Assembly (NCBI RefSeq): GCF_014084105.1
Contig: NZ_CP048289.1
Span: forward strand, 2,303,922 to 2,367,921
Direction: 5' to 3'
DNA from: Streptacidiphilus sp. P02-A3a
Lineage (GTDB): Bacteria; Actinomycetota; Actinomycetes; Streptomycetales; Streptomycetaceae
DNA length: 64,000 nt
Both the position numbers and the translations under genes were made by a program. Below, piece by piece: positions 43 through 19,939 of the stretch; the first letter of the stretch is position 1; each line of letters starts with the position of its first letter. The notes beneath the pieces are model-generated. The model was not told where the DNA came from. It saw only the letters and a list, made by a program, of their open reading frames with translations, and did no database searches.

Positions 43-3000
43 TCAGGCCTTCCGCAGCCAGAAGGTCAGCCCCAGCGCCTCGTCGGTGAACGGCGCGGCC
101 TCGGCCCAGTCGGCCTCGCCGGAGGCGAAGTCGGTGGCCAGCACCTCGTCGGCGATCAGGGCCGCGTGCACGCCCAGCGCCTCGGCGGTGTCGGCCTCGG
201 CGGCCAGGTAGCGCAGCGCGATCCGGTCCGCGACGTCCAGGCCGCTGTTCTTGCGGGCCTCCTGCACCTGCCGGATGGCGTCCCGGGCGAGCCCGGCGAG
301 CCGCAGCTCCGGGGTGATGTGCAGGTCGAGCGCGACCGTCGCGCCGGACTCGTTGGCGACCGCCCAGCCCTCGCGCGGGGTCTCGGTGATGATCACCTCG
401 TCCGGTCCGAGCTCGACCGGCGCGCCGTCCAGCTCGACCACCGCGCGGCCGTCGGTCCGCAGCGCGGCGGCCAGCGCGGCGGCGTCGGCGGCGGCGACCG
501 CCTTCGCGACCTCCTGCACGCCCTTGCCGAAACGCCTGCCGAGGACCCGGAAGTTGGCCTTGGCGGTGGTGTCCACCAGCGAGCCCCCCACCGCCGACAG
601 CGACTCCAGCGCGGTGACGTTCAGCTCCTCGGCGATCTGCGCCAGCAGTTCGGCGGGCAGTTCCTCGTACCCCTGGGCGGCGATCAGCGCCCGGGACAGC
701 GGCTGCCGGGTCTTCACCCCGGAGTCGGCGCGGGTCGCCCGGCCGAGTTCCACCAGCCGCCGGACCAGCGTCATGTGCCGCGACAGCGCCGGGTCCACCA
801 GTGCCTCGTCGACCACCGGGAAGTCGGACAGGTGCACCGAGACCGGCGCCGCCGGGTCCACCGGGACCACCAGGTCCTGCCACACCCGCTCGGTGATGAA
901 CGGGGTGAGCGGGGCCATCAGCCGGGTCACCGTCTCCAGCGCCTCGTGCAGCGTCCGCAGCGCGGCGGGCTCACCCTGCCAGAACCGCCGCCGGCCGCGC
1001 CGGACGTACCAGTTGGACAGGTCGTCGACGAAGGCCGAGAGCAGCTTGCCGGCGCGCTGGGTGTCGAAGCCGTCCAGCGCCTCGTCCACGTTCCGGACCA
1101 GCAGGTTCAGCTCGGACAGCAGCCACTTGTCCAGCAGCGGCCGGTCCGCCGGGGCCGGGTCCGAGGCGGACGGGGCCCAGTTCGCGGTGCGGGCGTAGAG
1201 GGCCTGGAAGGCGACGGTGTTCCAGTAGGTCAGCAGGGTCTTGCGGACCACCTCCTGGATGGTGTTGTGGCCGACCCGGCGCGCCGACCAGGGCGAGCCG
1301 CCCGCCGCCATGAACCAGCGCACCGCGTCCGCGCCGTGCTGGTCCATCAGCGAGATGGGCTCCAGGATGTTGCCGAGGTGCTTGGACATCTTCCGGCCGT
1401 CCTCGGCCAGGATGTGGCCCAGGCAGACCACGTTCTCGTACGCGGACCTGTCGAAGACCAGCGTGCCGACCGCCATCAGCGTGTAGAACCAGCCGCGGGT
1501 CTGGTCGATCGCCTCGGAGATGAACTGCGCCGGGTAGCGCCGCTCGAACAGGTCGGCGTTCTTCAGCGGGTAGCCGTACTGCGCGAACGGCATCGAGCCC
1601 GAGTCGTACCAGGCGTCGATCACCTCGGGCACCCGGGTCGCCGGGGCCGCGCAGCTGGTGCAGGGGAAGGTGACCTCGTCGATGTACGGGCGGTGCGGGT
1701 CCAGGTCGGACAGGTCGCGGCCGGTCAGCTCGGACAGCTCGGCCAGTGAGCCGACGCAGGTCAGGTGGTCCTGCTCGCAGCGCCAGATCGGCAGCGGGGT
1801 GCCCCAGTAGCGGTTCCGCGACAGCGCCCAGTCGATGTTGTTGTTCAGCCAGTCGCCGAAGCGGCCGTACTTGACGGTCTCCGGGAACCAGTTGGTCCGC
1901 TCGTTCTCCCGCAGCAGCGCGTCCTTGACGACGGTGGTGCGCACGTACCAGGACGGCTGCGCGTAGTACAGCAGCGCGGTGTGGCAGCGCCAGCAGTGCG
2001 GGTAGCTGTGCTCGTAGGGCACGTGCCGGAACAGTCGGCCGCGCGCGGCCAGGTCGGCGACCAGCGCCTCGTCGGCCTTCTTGAAGAACTGCCCGCCGAC
2101 CAGCGGCAGGTCGGGCTCGAAGGTGCCGTCGGCGAGCACCGGGTTGACCATCGGCAGCCCGTAGGCGCGGCAGGTCGCGAGGTCGTCCGCGCCGAAGGCG
2201 GGGGCCTGGTGGACCAGGCCCGAGCCGTCCTCGGTGGTCACGTACTCGGCGTTGACCACGTAGTGCGCGCCGTCCACCGGGACCAGCTCGAACGGGCGGT
2301 CGTAGGTCCAGCGCTCCATCTCGGCGCCGGTGAAGCGCTCGCCGGTGGCCTCCCAGCCCTCGCCCAGCGCCTTGGCCAGCAGCGGTTCGGCGACCACCAG
2401 CCGCTCGGTGCCGTCGGTGGCGACCACGTAGTCCACCTCGGGGTGGGCGGCCACCGCGACGTTGGAGACCAGCGTCCACGGGGTGGTCGTCCACACCAGC
2501 AGCGAGGCGGTGCCCGCCAGCGGTCCGGAGGTGAGCGGGAAGCGGACGAAGACCGACGGGTCCACCACGGTCTCGTAGCCCTGGGCCAGCTCGTGGTCGG
2601 ACAGGCCGGTGCCGCAGCGCGGGCACCACGGCGCCACCCGGAAGTCCTGGACCAGCAGTCCCTTGTCGAAGATCTGCTTGAGCGACCACCACACCGACTG
2701 GATGTAGTCCGGGTCCATGGTGCGGTAGGCGTCGTCCAGGTCGACCCAGTAGCCCATGCGGTTGGTGAGGGTGGCGAAGGCGTCGGTGTGCCGGGTCACC
2801 GACTCCCGGCACTTGGCGTTGAACTCGGCGACGCCGTACGCCTCGATGTCCTGCTTGCCGGAGAAGCCCAGCTCCTTCTCCACCGCCAGCTCGACCGGCA
2901 GCCCGTGGCAGTCCCAGCCGGCCTTGCGGGCCACGTGGTGGCCCTTCATGGTCTTGTAGCGGGGGAAGACGTCCTTGAAGACGCGGGCCTCGATGTGGTG

Positions 3001-3174
3001 CGCGCCGGGCATGCCGTTGGCGGTCGGCGGGCCCTCGTAGAACACCCACTCGGGACGGCCCTCGGACTGCTCCAGGCTGCGCTGGAAGATCTTGCCGTCC
3101 TGCCAGAAGGACAGGATGCCGTGCTCCAGCGCGGGCAGGTCCACCTGGGCGGGTACGGGGCGGTACTGGGTCAT
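43..3174 (-). CDS. ileS: Isoleucine--tRNA ligase
   Basis: Cytoplasmic class I aminoacyl-tRNA synthetase that charges tRNA-Ile and edits mischarged valine. The 1043-residue product carries a HIGH-like motif (GAHHIEA, first His at residue 59) and the KMSKS loop as KMSK at residues 595-598. The GPPTANG-type N-terminal block and the length fit the long, eukaryote-like IleS type common in actinobacteria. I chose the ATG at 3174 because the conserved protein begins MTQYRPV and a GGAGGA ribosome site lies just upstream; longer in-frame starts run into the leader. It is preceded by a T-box leader, so expression should respond to uncharged tRNA-Ile. The gene is complete. Function is very secure. Confidence 0.97.
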   Translation of the reverse strand: MTQYRPVPAQVDLPALEHGILSFWQDGKIFQRSLEQSEGRPEWVFYEGPPTANGMPGAHHIEARVFKDVFPRYKTMKGHHVARKAGWDCHGLPVELAVEKELGFSGKQDIEAYGVAEFNAKCRESVTRHTDAFATLTNRMGYWVDLDDAYRTMDPDYIQSVWWSLKQIFDKGLLVQDFRVAPWCPRCGTGLSDHELAQGYETVVDPSVFVRFPLTSGPLAGTASLLVWTTTPWTLVSNVAVAAHPEVDYVVATDGTERLVVAEPLLAKALGEGWEATGERFTGAEMERWTYDRPFELVPVDGAHYVVNAEYVTTEDGSGLVHQAPAFGADDLATCRAYGLPMVNPVLADGTFEPDLPLVGGQFFKKADEALVADLAARGRLFRHVPYEHSYPHCWRCHTALLYYAQPSWYVRTTVVKDALLRENERTNWFPETVKYGRFGDWLNNNIDWALSRNRYWGTPLPIWRCEQDHLTCVGSLAELSELTGRDLSDLDPHRPYIDEVTFPCTSCAAPATRVPEVIDAWYDSGSMPFAQYGYPLKNADLFERRYPAQFISEAIDQTRGWFYTLMAVGTLVFDRSAYENVVCLGHILAEDGRKMSKHLGNILEPISLMDQHGADAVRWFMAAGGSPWSARRVGHNTIQEVVRKTLLTYWNTVAFQALYARTANWAPSASDPAPADRPLLDKWLLSELNLLVRNVDEALDGFDTQRAGKLLSAFVDDLSNWYVRRGRRRFWQGEPAALRTLHEALETVTRLMAPLTPFITERVWQDLVVPVDPAAPVSVHLSDFPVVDEALVDPALSRHMTLVRRLVELGRATRADSGVKTRQPLSRALIAAQGYEELPAELLAQIAEELNVTALESLSAVGGSLVDTTAKANFRVLGRRFGKGVQEVAKAVAAADAAALAAALRTDGRAVVELDGAPVELGPDEVIITETPREGWAVANESGATVALDLHITPELRLAGLARDAIRQVQEARKNSGLDVADRIALRYLAAEADTAEALGVHAALIADEVLATDFASGEADWAEAAPFTDEALGLTFWLRKA

Positions 3175-3452
3175 ACGGGTCCTCCGGCGGCGCGAGAGTG
3201 CGGCGTTCAGCATTCGGCTTCCGACGGAGGGACGAGGCCACCGGCCCCGCGGTACCACCCTCCTTGGCCGTGCGGACTCGCACGGCCCCCTCATTAGGGG
3301 TCGCTGCCGGCTCTACTCGGCCCCGGCGCGGGGCCTTTCCTCCGGCGGCTCCGGGGTGATCTTCCCGCCGCGCACACCCCCAGGCTTCCACCGTCCCTGG
3401 ATCGCTCTCGGCTGCGTACCGCGGTACTCGTCCCCATCCACGCCTTGCGCGG
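3175..3452 (-). promoter_or_regulatory. T-box riboswitch leader of ileS
   Basis: On the minus strand the leader contains the near-invariant T-box core GGTGGTACCGCGG (complement of 3247-3259). It is preceded by the perfect hairpin GCCGTGCG-AGTC-CGCACGGC and followed by a pyrimidine-rich CCTCGTCCCTCC tract, then the ileS ribosome site. Actinobacterial ileS genes are known to carry translational T-boxes with very short stem I that free the ribosome site when uncharged tRNA-Ile binds. I see no U-run terminator before the start, which fits the translational type. The ATC specifier triplet could be in GCGATCC or AAGATCA; I cannot decide which without folding. Confidence 0.88.
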
Positions 3453-4449: not shown

Positions 4450-5040
4450 GTGGGTGGGTCCACCCCGGCCGCCGACGGCGCGGAGCCGGCCGTGGCTCCC
4501 GGGCGCCGCGGGCGCCGTGTCGGCGTCCTGCTGACCGTGGCACTGGCCGCGTACCTGCTCGACCTCGGCAGCAAGCTGCTGGTGGTCGCCCGCCTGGAGT
4601 ACCACAACCCGATCCACATCCTGGGTGACTGGGTGATGCTCCAGGCCACCCGGAACCCGGGCGCGGCCTTCGGTATGGGCGCGGCGATGACGATCGTGTT
4701 CACGATCATCGCGACCACCGTGGTCGTGGTCATCTGCCGGCTCGCCCGCAAGCTCTACAGCCTGCCCTGGGCGATCGCGCTCGGGCTGCTGCTGGGCGGG
4801 GCCTTCGGCAACCTCACCGACCGGATCTTCCGCGCGCCCGCCGTGTTCCGCGGCGCGGTGGTGGACTTCATCTCGGTGAAGCACTTCGCGGTGTTCAACC
4901 TGGCCGACTCGGCGATCGTCTGCGGCGGCATCCTGGTGGTCATCCTCTCCTTCCTGGGCACCAACCCGGACGGCTCGGTGCAGGGCGAGCCGAAGCCGGA
5001 GCAGTCCGAGCCGCGGCCGCGGGGCGACCAGCAGGACTGA
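4450..5040 (+). CDS. lspA: Lipoprotein signal peptidase (signal peptidase II)
   Basis: Inner-membrane aspartyl protease that removes the signal peptide from prolipoproteins after diacylglyceryl transfer. The 196-residue reading has four hydrophobic segments and both catalytic Asp motifs, GNLTDRIFR and VFNLADSAI. The C-terminus is a short charged tail. The given start, GTG at 4450, is the only standard start codon in frame. However, the frame stays open upstream and encodes AAERIISTP, which resembles the N-terminus I recall for Streptomyces LspA, so the true start may lie upstream and be non-standard. rluD follows 42 bases later, a common pairing. Confidence 0.93.
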
Positions 5041-5082: not shown

Positions 5083-6021
5083 GTGACCACCGATCCCCAG
5101 CTCCGCAGCCTGCCCGTACCCGACGGCCTCGAAGGCGAGCGTGTCGACGCCGCCATCGCCCGCATGTTCGGGTTCTCCCGTACCAAGGCGGCCGAACTGG
5201 CGGCCGAGGGCAAGGTCACCGTGGACGGTTCGGCCGTCGGCAAGTCCGACCGGGTCATCGCCGGGTCCTGGATGGAGGTCGAGCTCCCGGCCCCGCCCGC
5301 GCCGGTCCAGATCGTCGCCGAGCGCATCGACAACATGTCGATCGTCTATGACGATGAACACATCGTGGTGGTCAACAAGCCGGTGGGGGTGGCCGCCCAT
5401 CCCAGCCCCGGCTGGACCGGGCCGACCGTCATCGGCGGCCTCGCCGGTGCCGGGTACCGGATCTCCACCTCCGGCGCCTCCGAGCGGCAGGGCGTGGTGC
5501 ACCGGCTGGACGTCGGCACCTCCGGGCTGATGGCGGTGGCCAAGTCCGAGGCCGCCTACACCTCGCTCAAGCAGCAGTTCCGTGACCGGGTGGTGGAGAA
5601 GAAGTACAACGCCCTGGTCCAGGGCCACCCCGACCCGATGTCCGGGACGGTGGACGCGCCCATCGACCGCCACCCCAGCAGCGACTGGAAGTGGGCCGTG
5701 GTCGCCAACGGCAAGCCCTCGGTCACCCACTACGACCTGATCGAGGCGTACCGGGCGGCCTCGCTGCTGGACATCAAGCTGGAGACCGGCCGCACCCATC
5801 AGATCCGGGTGCACATGTCGGCGCTGCGCCACCCCTGCGTCGGCGACCTGACCTACGGCGCGGACCCGACCCTGGCCAAGCGGCTCGGCCTGACCCGGCA
5901 GTGGCTGCACGCGGTGGAGCTCGGCTTCGAGCACCCGGCCACCGGGGAGTGGGTGGTGTTCCGCACCGAGTACCCGGAGGACCTGACCCGCGCGCTGGAG
6001 ATCATCAGCTCCGAGAGCTAG
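5083..6021 (+). CDS. rluD: RluA/RluD-family pseudouridine synthase
   Basis: Isomerises uridines to pseudouridine in 23S rRNA. The 312-residue protein has an N-terminal S4 RNA-binding domain (about residues 12-75) and a PseudoU_synth_2 domain with the catalytic motif [14 protein letters not shown], whose Asp is the nucleophile, plus [18 protein letters not shown] box sits 6 bases before the GTG start with no ribosome site, so it is probably leaderless. It follows lspA as in most actinobacteria. The exact target uridines cannot be assigned from sequence. Confidence 0.93.
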
Positions 6022-6148: not shown

Positions 6149-7741
6149 ATGGCGCAGCTGATCCTCCTCTTCGTGGTCCTGCTGTTCGCCATCATCAGCA
6201 CCCCCGTCGCGGAGCGGGTGGGAGTGCCGCAGCCGGTGCTGATGACGCTGATCGGCATCGTGATGGCGGTGCTGTGGTTCGTGCCCAGCATCACCGTCCC
6301 GCCGGAGCTGATCCTGCCGCTGGTGCTGCCGCCGCTGATCTACGCCGCCGCGCAGCGGTCCACCGTCAGCTACTTCCGGTCCAACCTGCGGGTGATCCTG
6401 CTGCTGGCGGTGCTGCTGGTGCTGGTGACCACGGCGGCGGTGGCACTGGCCTGCCACTGGATCATCCCGGCGCTGCCGGTCAGCGCGGCGGTGGCGCTGG
6501 GCGCGCTGGTCTCGCCGCCGGACCCGATCGCGGCGGCGGCGGTGGCCGGCAGCGTCGGGCTGCCGCGGCGGCTGATGGGCATCCTGGAGACCGAGGGCCT
6601 GTTCAACGACGTCACCGCGCTGGTGGTGTACGGGCTGGCGGTGGACGCCGCGGTCAAGGGCGAGTTCTCGACGCTGGGGGCGGCCGAGCGGCTGGTGCTG
6701 TCGGCGGTGCTGGCGGTGGTCATCGGGGTGGGCCTGGGCTGGCTCAGCGGGAAGGTGATGGCGCTGCTGCACGACCCGACGCTACAGGTGGCGCTGAGCC
6801 TGCTGGTGCCCTACGCGGCGTACCTGCTGGCGGACGAGCTGCACGGCTCCGGGGTGCTGGCGGTGCTGGCCTGCTCGCTGTGGATCAACGACCAGGCGGT
6901 GGGCGCCGACGACGTCGGCTACCGGCTGGTCGGCGAGGCCTTCTGGGACGTGGTGGAGCTGCTGATCTCCGGGATGGCCTTCGGTCTGATCGGCCTGGAG
7001 CTGAGCAGTGTGCTCAGCACCGTCGGCAAGCACTGGACCGCGATGCTGGGCGACGCGGTACTGGTGATCGTGGTGGTGGTCGGCGTCCGGTTGGTCTGGC
7101 TGCTGCCCGGGGCGTGGGTCACCGACAGCTGGGACCGGGCGCGCGGTCGGCGCGAGGAGGCGGCGCCGATCGGCTGGCGCGAGTCGACGGTGCTGTGGTG
7201 GTCGGGGATGCGCGGGGTGGCCTCGGTGGCGCTGGCGCTGGCCGTCCCGTTCACGGTCGACGGCGGCGCGCCGTTCCCGCAGCGCCCGGAGATCATCTTC
7301 GTGGCCTTCTCGGTGGTGCTGTTCACGCTGCTGGTCCAGGGGTTGACGCTGCCGCTGGTGGTCCGCGCGCTGGGCCTGAGCCGGGATCAGGACGCGGAGG
7401 ACGCGGCGGAGCGCCAGCTCTGGTACCGGGCCTCCAAGGCCGGGCTGCGACGGCTGAAGGAGCTGGCGGCGGCCGAGGACCTGCCGGACGACCTGGTGGA
7501 CCGGCTCCGCCAGCGGCAGACCGACCTGCTCGCCCGGCACCGTCCCGACCTCTACGACGAGGAGCAGATGCGCGAGCTGCGCGAGCGCCGCCGCCGGGTC
7601 CGCCGGTTCACCGAAGTGGAGCAGCAGATGCTGGCCGCCGGGCGCCAGGAGATGCAGGAGGCCCGGATGGAACCGGGCTCCGATCCGGAGCTGGTCGACC
7701 GGGTGATCCGCAAACTCGACCTCCGCAGCACCCGCCGCTGA
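6149..7741 (+). CDS. CPA1-family Na+/H+ antiporter (NhaP type)
   Basis: Integral membrane cation/proton antiporter of 530 residues. About 12 hydrophobic segments are followed by a cytoplasmic, charged helical tail from about residue 410 (AAERQLWYRASKAGLRRLKEL to the end). Diagnostic CPA1 motifs are LGALVSPPDPIAA, which holds the ion-site Asp, and EGLFNDVTALVVY. The start ATG follows a strong GAGGGAAGGGG ribosome site. It probably exports Na+ or K+ and maintains pH. Ion preference cannot be read from sequence. It is a single gene, with the 19-bp dyad in front of it. Confidence 0.92.
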   Translation: MAQLILLFVVLLFAIISTPVAERVGVPQPVLMTLIGIVMAVLWFVPSITVPPELILPLVLPPLIYAAAQRSTVSYFRSNLRVILLLAVLLVLVTTAAVALACHWIIPALPVSAAVALGALVSPPDPIAAAAVAGSVGLPRRLMGILETEGLFNDVTALVVYGLAVDAAVKGEFSTLGAAERLVLSAVLAVVIGVGLGWLSGKVMALLHDPTLQVALSLLVPYAAYLLADELHGSGVLAVLACSLWINDQAVGADDVGYRLVGEAFWDVVELLISGMAFGLIGLELSSVLSTVGKHWTAMLGDAVLVIVVVVGVRLVWLLPGAWVTDSWDRARGRREEAAPIGWRESTVLWWSGMRGVASVALALAVPFTVDGGAPFPQRPEIIFVAFSVVLFTLLVQGLTLPLVVRALGLSRDQDAEDAAERQLWYRASKAGLRRLKELAAAEDLPDDLVDRLRQRQTDLLARHRPDLYDEEQMRELRERRRRVRRFTEVEQQMLAAGRQEMQEARMEPGSDPELVDRVIRKLDLRSTRR

Positions 7742-8236
7742 GCCGCCTCGCGGCCGGTGCGCTCAGCGGAGGCAGGTGCGCTGCCATTCCGCATGATCCT
7801 GCACGACTCGGAAGGGTCGTGGGCCAGTGTCCGGTACCTGGTCCAGGCACGCAGCTGGTGGGAGGGGCAGGGCAGGCCGGAACTCACGTGCTTCGGGCTC
7901 TCGGTCACAGCTGGGGGTGAGCAGCGGGTGTGGCTGGGTGCGGCTTCTTGTCCGGGTTTGCCAGGGTTGTAAATATTTGTTATATTTATAGCTTATGTCG
8001 ATATAACGTCCACGATGAGGGGTGCTCGCGGTGTGTCGTGGGTCTCACTTCGAAATTCTGGTGACGGTCGGTCAGAAACAGCTGACGAGCCGTCAAGGAT
8101 GAGCGGCGGCAACGCCCCTATGTCTTGATGGTGCGTCAGAAATACTCTGCCAGGCCGCCGTTGTGAGCCCCAGTCCGATGTCGCCGACGCCGCAAGCGAA
8201 GTAGCATCGACCGGGTCGTTGACGAGATGAGGACCC
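7742..8236. other. 495-bp intergenic region upstream of the Pls-type synthetase
   Basis: No convincing gene: the 71-codon frame at 7757-7972 has no ribosome site, no family resemblance and ends in the AT-rich patch. The notable content is an AT-rich patch at about 7968-8008 in DNA that is otherwise above 70% GC. It contains the dyad at 7979-8007. The last ~200 bases are ordinary GC-rich leader, ending in a GATGAGGA ribosome site for the synthetase. Confidence 0.7.
7979..8007. promoter_or_regulatory. AT-rich dyad (candidate operator/promoter) upstream of pls
   Basis: GTTATAT (7979-7985) and ATATAAC (8001-8007) are perfect inverted repeats around a 15-base AT-rich spacer. A dyad of this base composition is exceptional in this genome. 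It lies 230 bases before the synthetase start. It may be a regulator site or the promoter itself. No regulator is encoded next to it. Confidence 0.5.
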
Positions 8237-11200
8237 ATGACCACGGCCGTACGCCACTCCACGGTGGGGCAGGACTCCACGGTGGAGCTCGACGCCGCAC
8301 CCAGCGGGCTCGCCCTGTTCTCCGGAGCCCCGGCTCCGGAGCCGCGCACCCTGCTGGACATCCTCGACGCCACCACCCGGGACCACCCGAACGAGCCCGC
8401 GCTGGACGACGGCAGCACCGTGCTGAGCTACCGCGCCCTCGCCGCCGAGGTCGACACCCTGCGCGCCGCCCTCGCCGCGGCCGGGGTCGGGGTCGGCGAC
8501 CGGGTCGGGATCCGGGTGCCCTCCGGCACCGCCGACCTCTACGTGGCGATCCTCGCCGTCCTCGCCGCGGGTGCCGCCTACGTGCCGGTCGACGCCGAGG
8601 ACCCGGACGAGCGGGCCGCGCTGGTCTTCGGCGAGGCCGCCGTCTGCGCGGTCGTCGGCGCCGAGCGGCTGGTCACCCCGGTCGCCGAGCCGCACGGCCG
8701 CCCCGGCCGCCCCGGCACCGGCGACGACGCCTGGATCATCTTCACCTCCGGCTCCACCGGCAAGCCCAAGGGCGTCGCGGTCACCCACCGCAACGCCGCC
8801 GCCTTCGTCGACGCCGAGGCCGCGCTGTTCCAGCAGGAGGAGCCGCTGGGCCCGGGCGACCGGGTGATGGCCGGGCTGTCGGTCGCCTTCGACGCCTCCT
8901 GCGAGGAGATGTGGCTGGCCTGGCGCTACGGCGCCTGCCTGGTCACCGTCCCCAGGGCGCGGGTCCGCAGCGGCGCCGACCTCGGCCCCTGGCTGGTCGA
9001 GCAGGAGATCACCGCGGTCTCCACGGTGCCCACCCTGGCCGCGCTCTGGCCCGCCGACGCCCTCGGCGACGTCCGGCTGCTGATCTTCGGCGGTGAGGCC
9101 TGCCCGCCGGAGCTGGCCGAACGCCTCGCCACCGAGGGCCGCGAGGTGTGGAACACCTACGGCCCGACCGAGGCCACCGTGGTCGCCTGCGCCGCCCCGC
9201 TCACCGGCCGCGCCCCGGTCCGGATCGGCCTGCCGCTGGACGGCTGGGAGCTCGCCGTCGTCGACGCCGCGGGACAGGTCGTCCCGATGGGCGAGAGCGG
9301 CCAGCTGGTCATCGGCGGCGTCGGCCTCGCCCGCTACCTCGACCCGGTCAAGGACGCGGAGAAGTACGCCCCGCTGGAGTCCACCGGCTGGGAGCGCGCC
9401 TACCGCAGCGGCGACCTGGTACTGGCCCAGCCCGAGGGCCTGGTCTTCCTCGGCCGCGCCGACGAGCAGGTCAAACTCGGCGGACGCCGGATCGAGCTCG
9501 GCGAGGTCGACGCAGTGCTCCAGTCGCTCACCGGCGTCACCGGCGCCGCCGCCGCCGTCCGCACCGCCCGCGGCGGCAACCAGCTGCTGGTCGGCTACCT
9601 GGCCACCACCCCCGACTTCGACCACGAGGCCGCCGTCGCCCGGCTCCGCGCCGAGCTGCCGTCCGCCATGGTCCCGCTGCTCACCCAGGTCGACGAGCTG
9701 CCGGTGCGCACCTCCGGCAAGGTCGACCGGAACGCCCTGCCCTGGCCGCTGCCCGCGCTCGACCAGGTCGGCGCCGCCGAACAGCTCTACGGCACCGAGG
9801 CCTGGCTCGCCGAGCAGTGGAGCGAGGTGCTCGGCGTGCCCGTCGGCAGCGCCCGGGCCGACTTCTTCGCCAGCGGCGGCAGCAGCCTCGGCGCCGCCCA
9901 GCTGGTCACCCTGATCCGGCGGCGCTACCCGCACGCCGCCGTCAGCGACATCTACCAGTACCCGGTGCTGAGCGCCCTCGCCGCCCGGCTCGCGGCCGGC
10001 AGCCAGGACGACGCCGCGGTCCGCGAGGTGGTGCCCACCCCGCGCCGCGCCGGAGCCGTGCAGCTGCTGCTCACCCTCCCGCTGCTGACCGTCGTCGGCC
10101 TGCGCTGGACCGTGGTGCTGGCCGCGCTCTGCGACGTCCTCGGCTGGCAGCCGACCACCTCCTGGTGGGGGATCGCCGCCGCCGCGGCCGTGCTGTGGAC
10201 CCCGCCCGGACGGATCGCCATCGCCGCCGGGGGCGCCCGGCTGCTGCTGCGCGGCGTCCAGCCCGGCGACCACCCGCGCGGCGGCAGCGCGCACCTGCGG
10301 CTGTGGGCCGCCGAACGGCTGGCCGAGCTCAGCGGCGCCACCGCGCTGTCCGGCTCCTGGCTGGTCCGCTACGCCCGGGCGCTCGGCGGCAAGGTCGGCG
10401 ACGACGTGGACCTGCACACCCTGCCGCCGGTCACCGGCTGGCTGCGGCTCGGCAAGGGCTGCGCGGTCGAGGCCGAGACCGACCTCTCCGGCTGGTGGCT
10501 GGACGGCGACGTGCTGCACCTCGGCCCGGTCCGGGTCGGCGCGGGCGCCACCGTCGGCACCCGCAGCATCCTGTTCCCCGGCGCCCGGGTCGGCAAGCGC
10601 GCCGAGATCGTCGCCGGATCCGCGGTCACCGGCCAGGTCCCCACCGGCCAGCGCTGGGCCGGCGCGCCCGCCGCCAAGACCGGCCGGGCCAACCACAACT
10701 GGCCCGAGCAGCGCCCGCCCCGCAAGGCCCGCTGGGCGCTGATGTACGGCGCCGGCGGGATCGGCCTGACCCTGCTGCCGCTGGTCGCCGCCGCCGCCGG
10801 GATCGGCGTGCTGGCCGCGCTGTGGCCCGCCTCGCCGTGGCCCGGCATGCTGCTCGCGGTCCCGCTGGCCACCCTCACCGGCGCGCTCACCTACGCGCTG
10901 CTGATCCTGGTCGCGGTCCGGCTGCTCAGCCTCGGCCTGCGCACCGGCCACCACGCCCTGCACAGCCGCACCGCCTGGCAGGCCTGGACCGTGATCCAGC
11001 TGATGGACCTCGCCCGGGGCAGCCTCTTCCCGCTCTACGCCAGCAGCCTCACCCCGGTCTGGCTGCGGGCGCTCGGGATGAAGGTCGGCCACGGCGTCGA
11101 GGCCTCCACCGTGCTCGCGCTGCCGTCCATGACCACCGTCGGCGACGGTGCCTTCCTCGCCGACGACACCCTGATCGCCCCCTACGAACTCGGCGGCGGC

Positions 11201-12100
11201 TGGCTGCGGATCGACGCCGCCGAGATCGGCGAGCGCGCCTTCCTCGGCAACTCCGGGATGACCGCGCCCGGCCGCAGCGTCCCCGACCGGGGCCTGGTCG
11301 GGGTGCTCTCGGCCACCCCCAAGAAGGCCAAGAAGGGCAGCTCCTACCTCGGCATGCCGCCGATGAAGCTGCCCCGCCGCGCCGACTCCGCCGACCAGGG
11401 CCTGACCTATGCCCCCTCGGTCGGGCTCCGCTGGCAGCGCGGCCTGGTCGAGTCGCTGCGGCTGGTCCCGGTGATGCTGTCGGTCGGGCTCGCCCTCGGC
11501 GTGCTGGCGGTGCTGCGGGAGCTGGCCCGGAGCCAGGGCTACGCCGTGGCCGGGCTGCTCTCCGGCGCGGTGCTGCTCGCCGCCGGGCTGCTCGCCTGCC
11601 TGGTCTCGCTCACCGCCAAGTGGCTGCTGATCGGCCGGTTCACCGCCGTCGAGCACCCGCTGTGGAGCGGCCACGTCTGGCGCGACGAGCTCGCCGACAC
11701 CTTCACCGAGGTGCTGGCCGCGCCCTGGCTGCTGAACGCCGTCCCCGGCACCCCGCTGATGAACCTGTGGCTGCGCGGCCTCGGCGCCCGGATCGGCCGC
11801 GGCGTGTGGTGCGAGAGCTACTGGCTGCCCGAGGCCGACCTGGTCACCCTCGGTGACGGGGTCAGCATCAACCGCGGCTGCGTGGTGCAGACCCACCTGT
11901 TCCACGACCGGATCATGCGGATGGATTCGGTGGTGCTCCAGGAGGGTGCGACGCTCGGCCCGCACGGTATCGTCCTGCCGGGGACCACGATCGGGGCCCG
12001 GACCACCCTCGGCCCGGCATCCCTGGTGATGCGCGGCGAGACCGTGCCCGCGGACAGCCGCTGGCTCGGCAACCCGATCGCCGCCTGGCCACGCACCTGA
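8237..12100 (+). CDS. pls: Pls/PosA-type membrane NRPS (candidate epsilon-poly-L-lysine synthetase)
   Basis: Single-module peptide synthetase of 1287 residues. Order: adenylation domain (about 30-500; A3 IIFTSGSTGKPKG from residue 167, A10 Lys495); carrier domain with phosphopantetheine Ser550 in GGSSL; then a C-terminal half alternating pairs of membrane segments with three hexapeptide-like soluble domains (about 660-830, 950-1060 and 1170-1280). It has no classical condensation or thioesterase domain. This architecture is that of Pls, the S. albulus enzyme that joins L-lysine through alpha-carboxyl/epsilon-amino bonds (about 1319 residues). Pocket residues D219 A220 E223 S262 I283 G285 T307 V315 V316 K495 resemble a lysine code. 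Product identity is an inference; a diamino acid other than lysine is possible. Confidence 0.88.
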   Translation: MTTAVRHSTVGQDSTVELDAAPSGLALFSGAPAPEPRTLLDILDATTRDHPNEPALDDGSTVLSYRALAAEVDTLRAALAAAGVGVGDRVGIRVPSGTADLYVAILAVLAAGAAYVPVDAEDPDERAALVFGEAAVCAVVGAERLVTPVAEPHGRPGRPGTGDDAWIIFTSGSTGKPKGVAVTHRNAAAFVDAEAALFQQEEPLGPGDRVMAGLSVAFDASCEEMWLAWRYGACLVTVPRARVRSGADLGPWLVEQEITAVSTVPTLAALWPADALGDVRLLIFGGEACPPELAERLATEGREVWNTYGPTEATVVACAAPLTGRAPVRIGLPLDGWELAVVDAAGQVVPMGESGQLVIGGVGLARYLDPVKDAEKYAPLESTGWERAYRSGDLVLAQPEGLVFLGRADEQVKLGGRRIELGEVDAVLQSLTGVTGAAAAVRTARGGNQLLVGYLATTPDFDHEAAVARLRAELPSAMVPLLTQVDELPVRTSGKVDRNALPWPLPALDQVGAAEQLYGTEAWLAEQWSEVLGVPVGSARADFFASGGSSLGAAQLVTLIRRRYPHAAVSDIYQYPVLSALAARLAAGSQDDAAVREVVPTPRRAGAVQLLLTLPLLTVVGLRWTVVLAALCDVLGWQPTTSWWGIAAAAAVLWTPPGRIAIAAGGARLLLRGVQPGDHPRGGSAHLRLWAAERLAELSGATALSGSWLVRYARALGGKVGDDVDLHTLPPVTGWLRLGKGCAVEAETDLSGWWLDGDVLHLGPVRVGAGATVGTRSILFPGARVGKRAEIVAGSAVTGQVPTGQRWAGAPAAKTGRANHNWPEQRPPRKARWALMYGAGGIGLTLLPLVAAAAGIGVLAALWPASPWPGMLLAVPLATLTGALTYALLILVAVRLLSLGLRTGHHALHSRTAWQAWTVIQLMDLARGSLFPLYASSLTPVWLRALGMKVGHGVEASTVLALPSMTTVGDGAFLADDTLIAPYELGGGWLRIDAAEIGERAFLGNSGMTAPGRSVPDRGLVGVLSATPKKAKKGSSYLGMPPMKLPRRADSADQGLTYAPSVGLRWQRGLVESLRLVPVMLSVGLALGVLAVLRELARSQGYAVAGLLSGAVLLAAGLLACLVSLTAKWLLIGRFTAVEHPLWSGHVWRDELADTFTEVLAAPWLLNAVPGTPLMNLWLRGLGARIGRGVWCESYWLPEADLVTLGDGVSINRGCVVQTHLFHDRIMRMDSVVLQEGATLGPHGIVLPGTTIGARTTLGPASLVMRGETVPADSRWLGNPIAAWPRT

Positions 12101-12158
12101 CCCGGTGCGGTCAGTCCCCAGTCGCGGCAACCCCGGACCACGTCGGAGCAGATCAGCG

Positions 12159-13664
<1,506 letters not shown>

Positions 13665-13691: not shown

Positions 13692-14513
13692 CTACTTGCC
13701 GGCCAGCGCGGCGTCCACCACCGCTGTGAACTGGGCCTGGGTGACCGGGGTGCCGCTCGCGGAGAACACGTTGAGCTGCGTGCCGTTGAGCTTGAGCGTG
13801 GGCGTGCCGGTCACCCCGCTGGTGTTGAAGGCGTCGGACACCTTGGTCACCCACGGCCCGTAGGTGTTGTCCTGGACCGCCTTGGTGAAGGCCGGGGTGA
13901 CCAGACCGGGGACCTTCGCGGCCAGTTTCAGCATCTCGGCGGTGCTGTTGAAGCCGTCGCTGGTCTCCGGCGGCTGGTTGGCGTAGAGCTCGTCGTGGAA
14001 GGCCTTGAACGTGGCGGTGCCCTCGTTCAGCGCCGCCGCCGCGGCGTTCAGCGCCACGGCCGAGCCGTTGCCGCCGAGGTTGCCGTCCAGGAACGTGGCC
14101 ATGTGGTACTCGATCTTGTACGTGCCCTTGTCCGCCAGCGCCTGGATCGCCGGGCCCGCCGACTTCTCCAGCTCGTCGCAGATCGGGCAGCGGAAGTCCT
14201 CGTAGACCTGGAGCGTGTTCTTGGCGTTCGGGTTGCCGTAGACGATCACCGTGCCGTCGGCGTTGGCGGGGGCCACGTAGGGCGCGTTGGAGGTGGTCCG
14301 GGAGTCCTGCACGGCGATGCCGATACCGGTCCCGGCGACGATCACGGCGACGGCCGCGGCGCCGACGATCAGGCCCTTGCGGCGGCGGCGCCGCAGCGCC
14401 TCGGCGGCCCGGGCCTCGGCCACCCGGGCGCGGGCGTCGCCCCCGGGCCGGTCGCTCGTGGGCTGCTCGGTCGTGGGCTGCTCGGTCTTGGGCTGGGGGT
14501 GCTTGATGCTCAT
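13692..14513 (-). CDS. Membrane-anchored DsbA-like thioredoxin-fold protein
   Basis: A 273-residue protein with an Arg-rich cytoplasmic stretch (ALRRRRRK), one membrane segment (residues about 47-68) and an extracytoplasmic DsbA-like domain. The domain has the active site C109-P-I-C112 in YEDFRCPIC and the cis-Pro loop VTGTPTLKLNG. It probably oxidises or reduces disulphides in exported proteins. It belongs to the same family as the proteins at 41643-42482 and 40184-41014. The M1 peptidase gene converges on it from the other side with 27 bases between the stops. Thiol direction (oxidant or reductant) is not readable from sequence. Confidence 0.9.
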   Translation of the reverse strand: MSIKHPQPKTEQPTTEQPTSDRPGGDARARVAEARAAEALRRRRRKGLIVGAAAVAVIVAGTGIGIAVQDSRTTSNAPYVAPANADGTVIVYGNPNAKNTLQVYEDFRCPICDELEKSAGPAIQALADKGTYKIEYHMATFLDGNLGGNGSAVALNAAAAALNEGTATFKAFHDELYANQPPETSDGFNSTAEMLKLAAKVPGLVTPAFTKAVQDNTYGPWVTKVSDAFNTSGVTGTPTLKLNGTQLNVFSASGTPVTQAQFTAVVDAALAGK

Positions 14514-16104: not shown

Positions 16105-19100
16105 TCAGGCCGTCGCGGCCCAGACCCCGGGGCCGAGCAGGCCCTTGATGTCACTGGCGAAGCCGCTCTCCGGATCGACCAGGAAGCCCAGTTCGAACAG
16201 CACGTTCCGCTCGTGCCCGGACATCAGCAGCCGCACCGGCACGTCGCCCGGGTGCGCCCGCATGGTGCGCTTGAGCTCGGCCACCAGCTTGGGGTTGATC
16301 TTGCGCTCCGGGATGTTCAGCTGGATCGGAGGCTTGCCGCCGTGCTCGGCCGAGGAGATGTCGACCGGCTGCATCTCCTCACCAAAGATGCTGATCGCGC
16401 CGTCCCGCTCGTTCAGCCGCCCGCGGACCGAGATCACGTTGTCCTCGATCAGCTCGTGCGCCACCAGCTGGTACGCCTTGGGGAAGTACAGCACCTCCAC
16501 CGAGCCGTCGCGGTCGGCGATGGTGATGATCGCCCAGGGGTTCCCGGCCTTGTTGATCCGCCGGTCCACCGAGGTGATCAGCCCGCAGAGCTTGACGAAG
16601 CCCTCGGTCCGGCCGGAGCCGAGCAGTTCCGCGATGGAGGTGTCGCGGTTGCGGGACAGGATGTGCTCGGCGCCGTCCAGCGGGTGGCTGGAGACGTACA
16701 GGCCCAGCATCTCCCGCTCCAGGCTGAGCAGGTGCTTGCGCGGCCACTCGCGGTCGTCGAGGGTGAAGTCCAGGCCGATCGAGGGGGAGTCGTCGGTGCT
16801 GGAGTCCATCGAGCCGAACAGGTCGTCCTGCCCGATGGCCTGCTGCTTCTTCAGGCTGGTGACCGAGTCGATGGCGGTCTCGCAGACCGCCACCAGGCTC
16901 TGCCGGGTGTGCCCGAGCGAGTCGAAGGCCCCGGCCTTGATCAGCGAGTCCACCGTGCGCTTGTTGCAGACCACCAGCTCGACCTTGTCCAGGAAGTCCG
17001 CGAAGGAGGAGTACTTCCCCTTCTCGGCCCGGGACTTGACCAGGGATTCGATCACCGGCACGCCGACGTTGCGGACCGCCTTCAGGCCGAAGCGGACCGA
17101 GTCGCCGACGGCGGTGAAGTCGACCACCGACTCGTTGACGTCCGGGGAGAGGATCTTGATGCCCAGTCGGCGGCACTCGGCGAGGTAGATCGCCATCTTG
17201 TCCTTGTCGTCGGACACCGACGTGAGCAGCCCGGCCATGTACTCGGCCGGGTAGTTGGCCTTGAGGTAGGCGGTCCAGTAGGAGACCAGCCCGTACGCGG
17301 CGGAGTGCGACTTGTTGAAGGCGTACCCGGCGAACGGGACCAGCACGTCCCACACCGCCTGGATCGCCTCGTCCGAGTAGCCGCGCTCCTTGCAGCCCGC
17401 GTGGAAGGGCACGAACTCCTGCTCCAGGACCTCCTTCTTCTTCTTGCCCATGGCCCGGCGGAGCAGGTCGGCCTGTCCCAGGCTGTAGCCGGCCAGCACC
17501 TGCGCCGCGCGCTGCACCTGCTCCTGGTAGACGATCAGGCCGTAGGTGGGGCCGAGGACGTCCTTGAGCGGCTCCTCCAACTCCGGGTGGATCGGGGTGA
17601 TCTCCTGCATGGCGTTCTTGCGGAGCGCGTAGTTGGTGTGCGAGTTCATGCCCATCGGGCCCGGCCGGTACAGCGCCGAGACGGCGGAGATGTCGGCGAA
17701 CTCGGTCGGCTTCATCAGCTTCAGCAGCGCCCGCATGGGCCCGCCGTCCAGCTGGAACACGCCCAGGGTGTCGCCGCGCGCCAGCAGGTCGTAGGTGACC
17801 GGGTCGTCGAGCGGGATCTTCTCGGTGTCGACCGCGACGCCCCGGTTGGCCTTGATGATCTTGATGGCGTGGTCGATGATGCCCAGGTTCCGCAGACCCA
17901 GGAAGTCCATCTTGATCAGGCCCATGTCCTCGCACTGCGGGTACGAGAAGCCGGTGATGATCACCCCGTCCTTGTCCCGCTTGTGCAGCGGGATCAGGTC
18001 GAGCAGCGGGACGGAGGAGAGGATCACCGCGGCGGCGTGCACGCCGGTGCCCCGGGTCAGGCCCTCGATGCCCTTGCCGGTGTCGATGATCTTCTTGACG
18101 TCGGGCTCGTTCTCGTACATCGCCCGGATCTCGCCGCCCTCGGAGTACCGCGGGTGCGACTCGTCGAACAGCGCGTACAGCGGGACGCCCTTGCCCATCA
18201 CGTCCGGCGGCATCGCCTTGGTGATCCGGTCGCCCATGGAGAAGGGGTAACCGAGGATCCGGTTGGCGTCCTTGACCGCGGCCTTGGCCTTGATCGTGCC
18301 GAAGGTGTTGACCTGCGCGGTGTAGGCCTCGCCGTACTTCTCGGTGACGTAGCGGACCATCTGGTCGCGCTGGCGGTCGTCGAAGTCGATGTCGACGTCG
18401 GGCGGGTTGATCCGCTCCGGGTTGAGGAACCGCTCGAACAGCAGATCGTGTTCGAGCGGGTCGAGTTCGGTGATCCGGGTCAGGTACGCCACGATCGAAC
18501 CGGCCGCGGAGCCACGACCGGGGCCGACCGGGATGCCGTTGTCGCGGGCGTACTGGCAGATGTCGGCGACCACGAGGAAGTAGGCGTCGAACCCCATCGG
18601 GGAGATGACGCCCATCTCCAGCTCGATCCGGTCCAGCACCTCCTGGCTCGGGGCGTCGCCGTAGCGCCGGGGGAGCCCCTCGGCGATCTTGTGCCGGAGC
18701 CAGGACGCCTGGGTCTCCCCCTCCGGCACGTCGAACTGCGGCATCCGGTCGACGTAGGTGAACACCTCGTCGTAGGGCTCGATCCGCTCGGCGATCGCCA
18801 GGGTGTTGTCGCAGGCCTCCGGCAGCTCCCGGAACAGCTCGCGCATCTCCTCGGAGGTCTTGATGTAGTAGCCGGAGCCGTTGAACTTGAACCGGTTCGG
18901 GTCGTCCTTGTTCTTGCCCACGCCCACGCACAGCAGGTTGTCGTGGGCGTCGGCCTGGTCCTCGGTGACGTAGTGCGAGTCGTTGGTCGCCAGCAGCGGG
19001 ATGTCCAGCGCCTTCGCCAGCCGCAGCAGGTCCTCGCGGACGCCGCGCTCGATGTCGAGGCCGTGGTCCATCAGCTCCAGGAAGTAGTTCTCCTTGCCGA

Positions 19101-19665
19101 AGATCTGCTGGTAGGCGTCGGCGGCCTTGACCGCCTCGTCGTACTGGCCGAGGCGCAGCCGGGTCTGCACCTCGCCGGAGGGGCAGCCGGTGGTGGCGAT
19201 GATTCCCTTGGCGTTGGCGGCGATCAGCTCGCGGTCCATCCGGGGCTTCATGTAGTAGCCCTCCATCGACGCCAGCGAGGAGAGCTTGAACAGGTTCCGC
19301 AGGCCCTCGGCGTTCTGCGCCCACATGGTCATGTGGGTGTAGCGGCCGCCGCCGGAGACGTCCTTGCCGCCCTCGCCGTCGGCGCTGGCCACCCGCTGCC
19401 CGCCGGGGGCCCAGAACACCTGCTTCTTGTGGAACCGGGACTCGGGCGCCACGTACGCCTCGATGCCGATGATCGGCTTGACCCCGCCGGTCTTCTTGGC
19501 GGTCTGGAAGAACTCGTAGGCGCCGAACATGTTCCCGTGGTCCGACATGGCCACCGCGGGCATGCCCTGGCGCTCGACCTCGGCGATCAGCTTGCCGTTC
19601 TTGGCAGCTCCGTCCAGCATCGAGTACTCGGTGTGTACATGCAGGTGAACGAAGCTGTCGGCCAC
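16105..19665 (-). CDS. dnaE: DNA polymerase III alpha subunit (DnaE1)
   Basis: Catalytic subunit of the replicative polymerase, 1186 residues. It has an N-terminal PHP domain (HLHVHTEYSMLDGAAK, SDHGNMFG), then the C-family polymerase core with PGRGSAAGSIVAYL and the metal-binding PDVDIDFDD. Helix-hairpin-helix and OB-fold regions lie in the last ~250 residues (VCGLI-like region KLCGLITSVDRRINK). The start GTG at 19665 follows CCAGGAG and begins directly at the conserved VADSFVHLHVH. Length fits the family. It is a lone gene with its own terminator. Confidence 0.97.
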   Translation of the reverse strand: MADSFVHLHVHTEYSMLDGAAKNGKLIAEVERQGMPAVAMSDHGNMFGAYEFFQTAKKTGGVKPIIGIEAYVAPESRFHKKQVFWAPGGQRVASADGEGGKDVSGGGRYTHMTMWAQNAEGLRNLFKLSSLASMEGYYMKPRMDRELIAANAKGIIATTGCPSGEVQTRLRLGQYDEAVKAADAYQQIFGKENYFLELMDHGLDIERGVREDLLRLAKALDIPLLATNDSHYVTEDQADAHDNLLCVGVGKNKDDPNRFKFNGSGYYIKTSEEMRELFRELPEACDNTLAIAERIEPYDEVFTYVDRMPQFDVPEGETQASWLRHKIAEGLPRRYGDAPSQEVLDRIELEMGVISPMGFDAYFLVVADICQYARDNGIPVGPGRGSAAGSIVAYLTRITELDPLEHDLLFERFLNPERINPPDVDIDFDDRQRDQMVRYVTEKYGEAYTAQVNTFGTIKAKAAVKDANRILGYPFSMGDRITKAMPPDVMGKGVPLYALFDESHPRYSEGGEIRAMYENEPDVKKIIDTGKGIEGLTRGTGVHAAAVILSSVPLLDLIPLHKRDKDGVIITGFSYPQCEDMGLIKMDFLGLRNLGIIDHAIKIIKANRGVAVDTEKIPLDDPVTYDLLARGDTLGVFQLDGGPMRALLKLMKPTEFADISAVSALYRPGPMGMNSHTNYALRKNAMQEITPIHPELEEPLKDVLGPTYGLIVYQEQVQRAAQVLAGYSLGQADLLRRAMGKKKKEVLEQEFVPFHAGCKERGYSDEAIQAVWDVLVPFAGYAFNKSHSAAYGLVSYWTAYLKANYPAEYMAGLLTSVSDDKDKMAIYLAECRRLGIKILSPDVNESVVDFTAVGDSVRFGLKAVRNVGVPVIESLVKSRAEKGKYSSFADFLDKVELVVCNKRTVDSLIKAGAFDSLGHTRQSLVAVCETAIDSVTSLKKQQAIGQDDLFGSMDSSTDDSPSIGLDFTLDDREWPRKHLLSLEREMLGLYVSSHPLDGAEHILSRNRDTSIAELLGSGRTEGFVKLCGLITSVDRRINKAGNPWAIITIADRDGSVEVLYFPKAYQLVAHELIEDNVISVRGRLNERDGAISIFGEEMQPVDISSAEHGGKPPIQLNIPERKINPKLVAELKRTMRAHPGDVPVRLLMSGHERNVLFELGFLVDPESGFASDIKGLLGPGVWAATA

Positions 19666-19939
19666 GGGGTCTCCTGGTTCGCGGACTGGGGGAGGCACCC
19701 ACTTTAGTCCCGCCCGCCCCACGACTCGCCGGGCGTCGGCGAGCGCGCCCCGATCGGGCGGCGCGGAGGCGGAGTCATCGTTCGGGTGGGAGACGCGGCG
19801 GCGGCGCGGATGGCTACCGAATGTGTCCGAGTGGTGGCCTAGGGTGTCCGTGGTCGGGTGTCCGGCGCCGCGTCGCCGGTGCCCCGGCCTGCCCGTGGCA
19901 CGCGCTCCGCGTGGCGGGCCTCTTCGTCAGGAGGATCCC

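Follow-up and report, generated by a model that had tools for sequence, protein, structure and literature searches.

The locus described here lies in a 64,000-nucleotide stretch of the Streptacidiphilus sp. P02-A3a genome (contig NZ_CP048289.1, positions 2,303,922 to 2,367,921; the window). It carries a gene for a Pls-type synthetase and, directly downstream, a gene for an M1 peptidase (Table 1). An initial annotation, made from the sequence alone, had singled out the synthetase for its lysine-like pocket. The protein family, the pocket, the predicted domain anatomy, the zinc site of the peptidase and the conservation of the pair were observed directly, and together they suggest that the locus is very probably a two-gene epsilon-poly-L-lysine (epsilon-PL) operon, comprising a Pls-like synthetase and a polymer-cleaving peptidase.

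The synthetase and its lysine pocket

The synthetase open reading frame (ORF) runs from ATG to TGA and encodes 1287 amino acids, the length originally given. The start and frame were accepted because the start region is kept in an alignment of close same-genus orthologues and because third-position GC is 0.98; a long antisense ORF overlapping pls (8093-12211, minus strand) was taken as a by-product of 72% GC. The NCBIfam profile of the Pls/PosA family, TIGR02353, matched residues 608-1281 with 765.7 bits (cut-off 423.1), and Pfam placed an AMP-binding domain at residues 45-366 and a PP-binding domain, containing Ser550, at residues 523-585. No condensation (C) or thioesterase (TE) domain was detected in the synthetase by Pfam, which agrees with the initial annotation of an adenylation (A) domain and a carrier lacking both. 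Judged by profile and domain content, the gene is a full Pls/PosA-family synthetase, an enzyme type already known.

The closest solved relative was PDB entry 7WEW, an epsilon-PL synthase, with 65% identity over the A domain and a score (662 bits, E 1e-197) that rules out a chance likeness. Alignment to 7WEW gave DAESIGTVVK as the ten pocket residues, the same letters as had been read before. All ten are identical to those of the Streptomyces albulus Pls A domain itself, which strengthens a lysine assignment that had relied on an 8 of 10 likeness to the lysine code given for the bacitracin synthetase BacB in the initial annotation. The 7WEW structure is Pls_A of S. albulus with Lys-AMP bound, and the lysine contacts described for it are D213, E217, S256, T301 and K495 (PMC11253843); the residue types are matched here by D219, E223, S262, T307 and K495.

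A contig scan with patterns from the synthetase returned at least 595 stretches encoding relatives, from which the best 80, the nearest kin, were kept as named relatives. Of 123 aligned rows, 122 carried this pocket code, among them all 80 named relatives and all 11 rows assigned to the S. albulus type (7WEW and ten loci). The exception, L170, is a piece whose frame, as taken, is without the first three pocket positions.

It could be that the synthetase uses another diamino acid, namely L-ornithine, diaminobutyric acid (DAB), diaminopropionic acid (DAP) or beta-lysine. The Pls/PosA family makes several cationic homopolymers, and a bacitracin lysine A domain is reported as the nearest code for PosA, which proved to be an ornithine enzyme (PMC10522769). 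The same report gives the pockets of PosA (DMEHNGTVSK) and of a beta-lysine synthetase (DGESISVVNK), and links position 2 to the substrate, with Ala for lysine, Met for ornithine and Phe for DAP or DAB. The window pocket has Ala at position 2 and matches the PosA and the beta-lysine codes at 6 of 10 positions each, against 10 of 10 for Pls, while three DAP/DAB-like proteins of related genomes carry DFEY(M/V)GTVTK and sit on a distant tree branch. In the A-domain alignment, a check proposed at the outset, the pocket thus groups with Pls and not with the ornithine, beta-lysine or DAP/DAB codes, and a substrate other than lysine is regarded as very improbable.

The C-terminal half was modelled with AlphaFold (residues 595-1287; mean pLDDT 91.5, pTM 0.91) from the window protein aligned with 54 locus stretches. 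Of 145 usable stretches, 58 had been picked as non-redundant, and L164, L220, L222 and L223 were omitted from this alignment. In the model, short beta strands form three blocks, each of them a left-handed beta-helix preceded by long paired helices. By analogy with the family, for which six membrane-spanning helices in three pairs are expected, these helices are probably membrane-spanning. Three hexapeptide-like domains had been proposed for this half, and the three blocks bear this out, although Pfam Hexapep marked a single stretch (28, cut-off 27). Compared with the PDB by Foldseek, the model gave 53 matches at E <= 0.001, the best at E 8.7e-5. The matches were to hexapeptide acyltransferases, including serine acetyltransferases, maltose and galactoside acetyltransferases, LpxD and GlmU. 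Whole-model TM-scores to these enzymes were low, as expected where one domain of several matches. A membrane half with three beta-helices has already been published for PosA, as a model (PMC10522769), and the present model therefore confirms the anatomy and presents no new fold.

The third block carries the motif QTHLFHDR (residues 1218-1225; 11888-11911), which was found in 146 of 155 proteins and in all 50 of the loci L227-L276, 21 of these being among the 155. The nine proteins without it are the shortened lysine-pocket pieces L167 and L180, together with L215-L218, L220, L222 and L223, which are not counted as lysine-type and of which L217, L220 and L222 are partial. The three DAP/DAB-like proteins aligning at this point (L215, L216 and L218) read QTHLFEDR instead. 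The motif is a possible catalytic or substrate-linked position, and a histidine in this loop might serve as general base if the analogy with hexapeptide acyltransferases holds.

The partner peptidase, its conservation and the genomic setting

The downstream product scored 93.8 bits against Pfam Peptidase_M1, above the cut-off. Its likelier start is the TTG at 12159, which follows GGAG, with the GTG at 12105 as an alternative. The zinc site is intact (HELAH-X18-E). Of 125 sequences examined, 105 gave an M1 match and 20 did not, and HEXXH-X18-E was present in every one of the 105. M1 aminopeptidases usually carry GAMEN at a position where the window peptidase has the motif EAQ. The genome encodes three other M1 peptidases that match the partner, all of them distant, at 29-31% identity. 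The S. albulus pldII gene is reported to adjoin pls and to be translationally coupled to it, and its product to degrade epsilon-PL (PMC9223678; PMC8117764). By this analogy the PldII-like neighbour, overlooked in the initial annotation, adds independent support for lysine as the substrate. The earlier proposal that the strain may make epsilon-PL is accordingly upheld, as a prediction, by pocket, family and neighbour. Inactivation of Pld and PldII is reported to leave production and degree of polymerisation unchanged (PMC8506220), and a length-setting role is therefore not claimed for the peptidase.

An M1 gene lies downstream on the same strand in all 80 named relatives. The pocket was identical in all 50 of the loci L227-L276, which come from the phylum and single-family samples described below. 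Of these, 44 have the peptidase after pls and three have a peptidase match sharing 15-30 bases with the pls match; in the remaining three no peptidase was found within flanks of ~ 1.5 kb. At the level of genomes, a close match to the S. albulus A domain (E <= 1e-170, all clades together) is encoded in 207 of the 394 genomes from the family of the window. In a sample of the phylum, 22 of 396 genomes, counting that of the window, had a homologue at E <= 1e-200. So did 183 of 201 genomes (27 of 31 genera) of one actinomycete family, with 59-66% identity among the matches listed. This family, which contains Rhodococcus opacus B4, is presumably the Mycobacteriaceae of GTDB; pocket and neighbour were checked for the fetched loci, a part of the 183 genomes. 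These counts suggest that actinomycetes commonly combine the synthesis of a lysine polymer with a matched peptidase, and that the combination is not confined to a few soil streptomycetes.

In the window the pair lies among core genes, with a probable ileS-lspA-rluD block and a Na+/H+ antiporter gene on one side and a DsbA-like gene and dnaE on the other (Table 1). The upstream neighbours and dnaE recur only in a few same-genus stretches and are missing from all 80 named loci; what is conserved is thus the two-gene pair. The antiporter was considered as a link to the acid dependence of epsilon-PL synthesis and set aside as a matter of position only, since 5 of 32 related-genome stretches have it and none of the named loci does. 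As a separate observation, the genome is rich in nonribosomal peptide synthetases (NRPSs), with 111 AMP-binding matches and NRPS frames of up to 7406 amino acids.

Table 1. Features of the pls locus and its surroundings in the window.
Feature	Position	Strand	Basis or remark
pls-type synthetase gene (A - carrier - membrane polymerisation half)	8237..12100	+	ORF, TIGR02353, Pfam
Adenylation domain, residues 37-507	8345..9757	+	Alignment to 7WEW
Pocket positions D219 A220 E223 S262 I283 G285 T307 V315 V316 K495	within 8345..9757	+	7WEW alignment
Carrier (PP-binding) domain, residues 523-585; Ser550 codon 9884-9886	9803..9991	+	Pfam, alignment
C-terminal polymerisation half, residues 595-1287	10019..12097	+	TIGR02353, AlphaFold, Foldseek
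First beta-helix block C1, approximate limits	10382..10690	+	AlphaFold model
Second beta-helix block C2, approximate limits	11075..11374	+	AlphaFold model
Third beta-helix block C3 with QTHLFHDR	11789..12088	+	AlphaFold model, alignment
M1 peptidase gene, PldII-like	12159..13664	+	Pfam Peptidase_M1, zinc motif
Class I aminoacyl-tRNA synthetase, probably ileS	43-3294	-	
lspA	4450-5040		
rluD-like gene	5083-6021		
Na+/H+ antiporter	6149-7741		Upstream of pls
TGACG-N3-CGTCA palindromes, 13 bp, one perfect, two with one mismatch	8062-8074, 8083-8095, 8126-8138		Upstream of pls; candidate operator
DsbA-like gene	13692-14513	-	
dnaE	16105-19722	-	

The near-universal homologue in one family, unlike a typical accessory antibiotic, and the position of the operon between core genes would both suit a lysine polymer, or a shorter oligomer, made for the strain's own physiology, with antimicrobial action secondary; the enzymology would be the same and the role would differ. 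Note, however, that wide distribution also fits a widely kept defence polymer, that the phylum sample held a homologue in few genomes and that the core setting recurs in none of the named loci. A primarily physiological role is considered rather unlikely.

Three palindromes upstream of pls show similar spacing in same-genus orthologues. Sites with at most one mismatch within 350 bases upstream were found in 5 of the 80 named loci. Among 16 other loci with the peptidase, a set that includes the window, 7 had them; the 10 S. albulus-type loci had none, and of the 21 loci without the peptidase 2 did. The perfect palindrome occurs in 166 copies in the genome, compared with 6 for a reversed-letter control, and in 68-296 copies in 13 other genomes of the genus; it looks like a candidate operator of a global regulator. 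An AT-rich stretch at ~ 7970-8005 with short inverted repeats, in this genome of 72% GC, was rejected as a control element since it is not kept in aligned same-genus orthologues. No literature was found on binding sites in pls promoters, on TGACG/CGTCA palindromes in Streptomyces or on epsilon-PL in Streptacidiphilus.

The palindrome array, if it is an operator, also bears on whether the gene is used. Corynebacterium variabile is reported to have an intact gene, no detected Pls protein and no detectable epsilon-PL (PMC8117764), and an intact lysine polymer synthetase that is silent or barely expressed, leaving the strain no practical producer, would be compatible with the proposed operon. With the synthetase ORF and the peptidase both intact and conserved, silence is a distinct possibility but on balance doubtful.

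Clades of lysine-pocket synthetases and a second synthetase

A tree was built (LG+G4, SH-aLRT support only) from 77 self-chosen rows, namely the window protein, the solved A domain and 75 of the 154 locus proteins. The lysine-pocket proteins fall into three well supported clades, whose order is not claimed. Clade I, the S. albulus type, has 11 rows, and the peptidase is present in 9 of its 10 loci, the solved domain being without context. In clade II the peptidase is absent in 21 of 21, on stretches reaching ~ 3-9 kb past the gene. Clade III, the window type, has the same pocket and the peptidase in 40 of 40; among its hosts are Streptomycetaceae, Pseudonocardiaceae, Micromonosporaceae and Nocardiaceae, with further groups besides. 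Mapped on the tree, the peptidase label requires two changes. The tree carries warnings for long branches (L223, L217, L179, L180 and L247), for the joining of the long branches L244 and L247, and for odd composition in ten rows, and only five rows come from Nocardiaceae or the family with the count of 183 in 201. The window-type branch appears to be much more widely distributed than the industrial S. albulus branch.

Several observations count against an epsilon-PL operon at this locus. The window protein falls outside the S. albulus clade, and its full-length identity to five S. albulus-type loci (A-domain identity to 7WEW 85-93%) is only 55-57%. The tree also lacks the C. variabile Pls, the verified coryneform enzyme. 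For the peptidase, all NCBIfam models stayed below cut-off (best 108 bits against 591), its identity to the M1 peptidases beside S. albulus-type pls is only 45-49%, and it has EAQ where those have ENQ. A plain orthologue of S. albulus Pls was rejected on the tree placement. Membership of the S. albulus clade was, however, not counted as defining for an epsilon-PL synthetase, because the C. variabile enzyme, reported as 51% identical to S. albulus Pls, yields epsilon-PL when expressed in S. coelicolor, of which strain M145 is reported to have no pls of its own (PMC8117764). That the product is a secreted antimicrobial polymer is less certain than that the enzyme is a lysine polymer synthetase, since Pls genes can be silent, as in C. 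variabile, and since the protein lies outside the S. albulus clade.

In each of 14 genomes of the window's genus, the S. albulus A domain found two or three counterparts (E <= 1e-100), a few of them truncated by contig ends or frame-broken. The window genome has two full-length Pls genes. The second, at C1:8177306-8181187 (L010; L015:9298-13413, minus strand), encodes a protein 58% identical to the first with the same lysine pocket; its neighbours are a PdtaS-type histidine kinase gene and a WhiB-like gene, with no M1 peptidase. No description of the three clades or of the peptidase-less paralogues was found among the titles and abstract openings listed from open-licence PMC papers. The PosA paper reports two separate groups with the Pls code (PMC10522769), which may correspond in part to the clades found here.

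One explanation of this pattern would be that the broad actinomycete pls-peptidase operon, apart from the S. albulus clade and near-universal in one large family, has a mainly physiological and not an antibiotic role. Its product might be a polycation that belongs to the envelope, counters acid stress or binds polyanions, for instance, and that the partner peptidase turns over. In the window's genus the operon would have been joined by one or two peptidase-less lysine-type synthetases that took over the role of making secreted polymer. This scenario is offered as an unlikely one.

Proposed route and comparison with known systems

Activation of lysine, isopeptide polymerisation, export and cleavage are inferred from characterised relatives. 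In the proposed epsilon-PL route, the synthetase would activate L-lysine as lysyl-AMP and load it as a thioester on the carrier arm at Ser550. The membrane half would then link lysines one after another, alpha-carboxyl to epsilon-amino group, to give epsilon-PL, and the downstream peptidase would cleave excess polymer, probably protecting the producer.

Epsilon-PL is an antimicrobial lysine chain and an approved food preservative, and the locus is a strong candidate source of it. What may add interest is the distribution and the paralogue pattern, not the identity of the gene. A genus whose members have two or three synthetases sharing one pocket offers a natural way to ask which factors determine the length of the chain and what it is for.

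Compared with known systems, the locus shares with S. albulus Pls the ten pocket residues, the reported domain order and a peptidase next to pls, and differs in its 65% A-domain identity and separate clade. PldII of S. albulus is, like the window peptidase, encoded beside pls (PMC9223678). The reported features of C. variabile Pls are the same architecture, an identical or highly similar pocket and a peptidase operon (PMC8117764). Nocardia homologues such as nfa3790 are described as predicted poly-lysine synthetases (PMC4035055); a Nocardia farcinica protein gave a 60.8% match to the window protein and is not equated with nfa3790. An antiSMASH survey lists an epsilon-PL cluster for Kitasatospora setae (PMC11117518). 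PosA, the delta-poly-L-ornithine synthetase of Acinetobacter baumannii, belongs to the same family and has the three-beta-helix half, but differs in its ornithine pocket, DMEHNGTVSK, and in being reported as a single-gene operon (PMC10522769).

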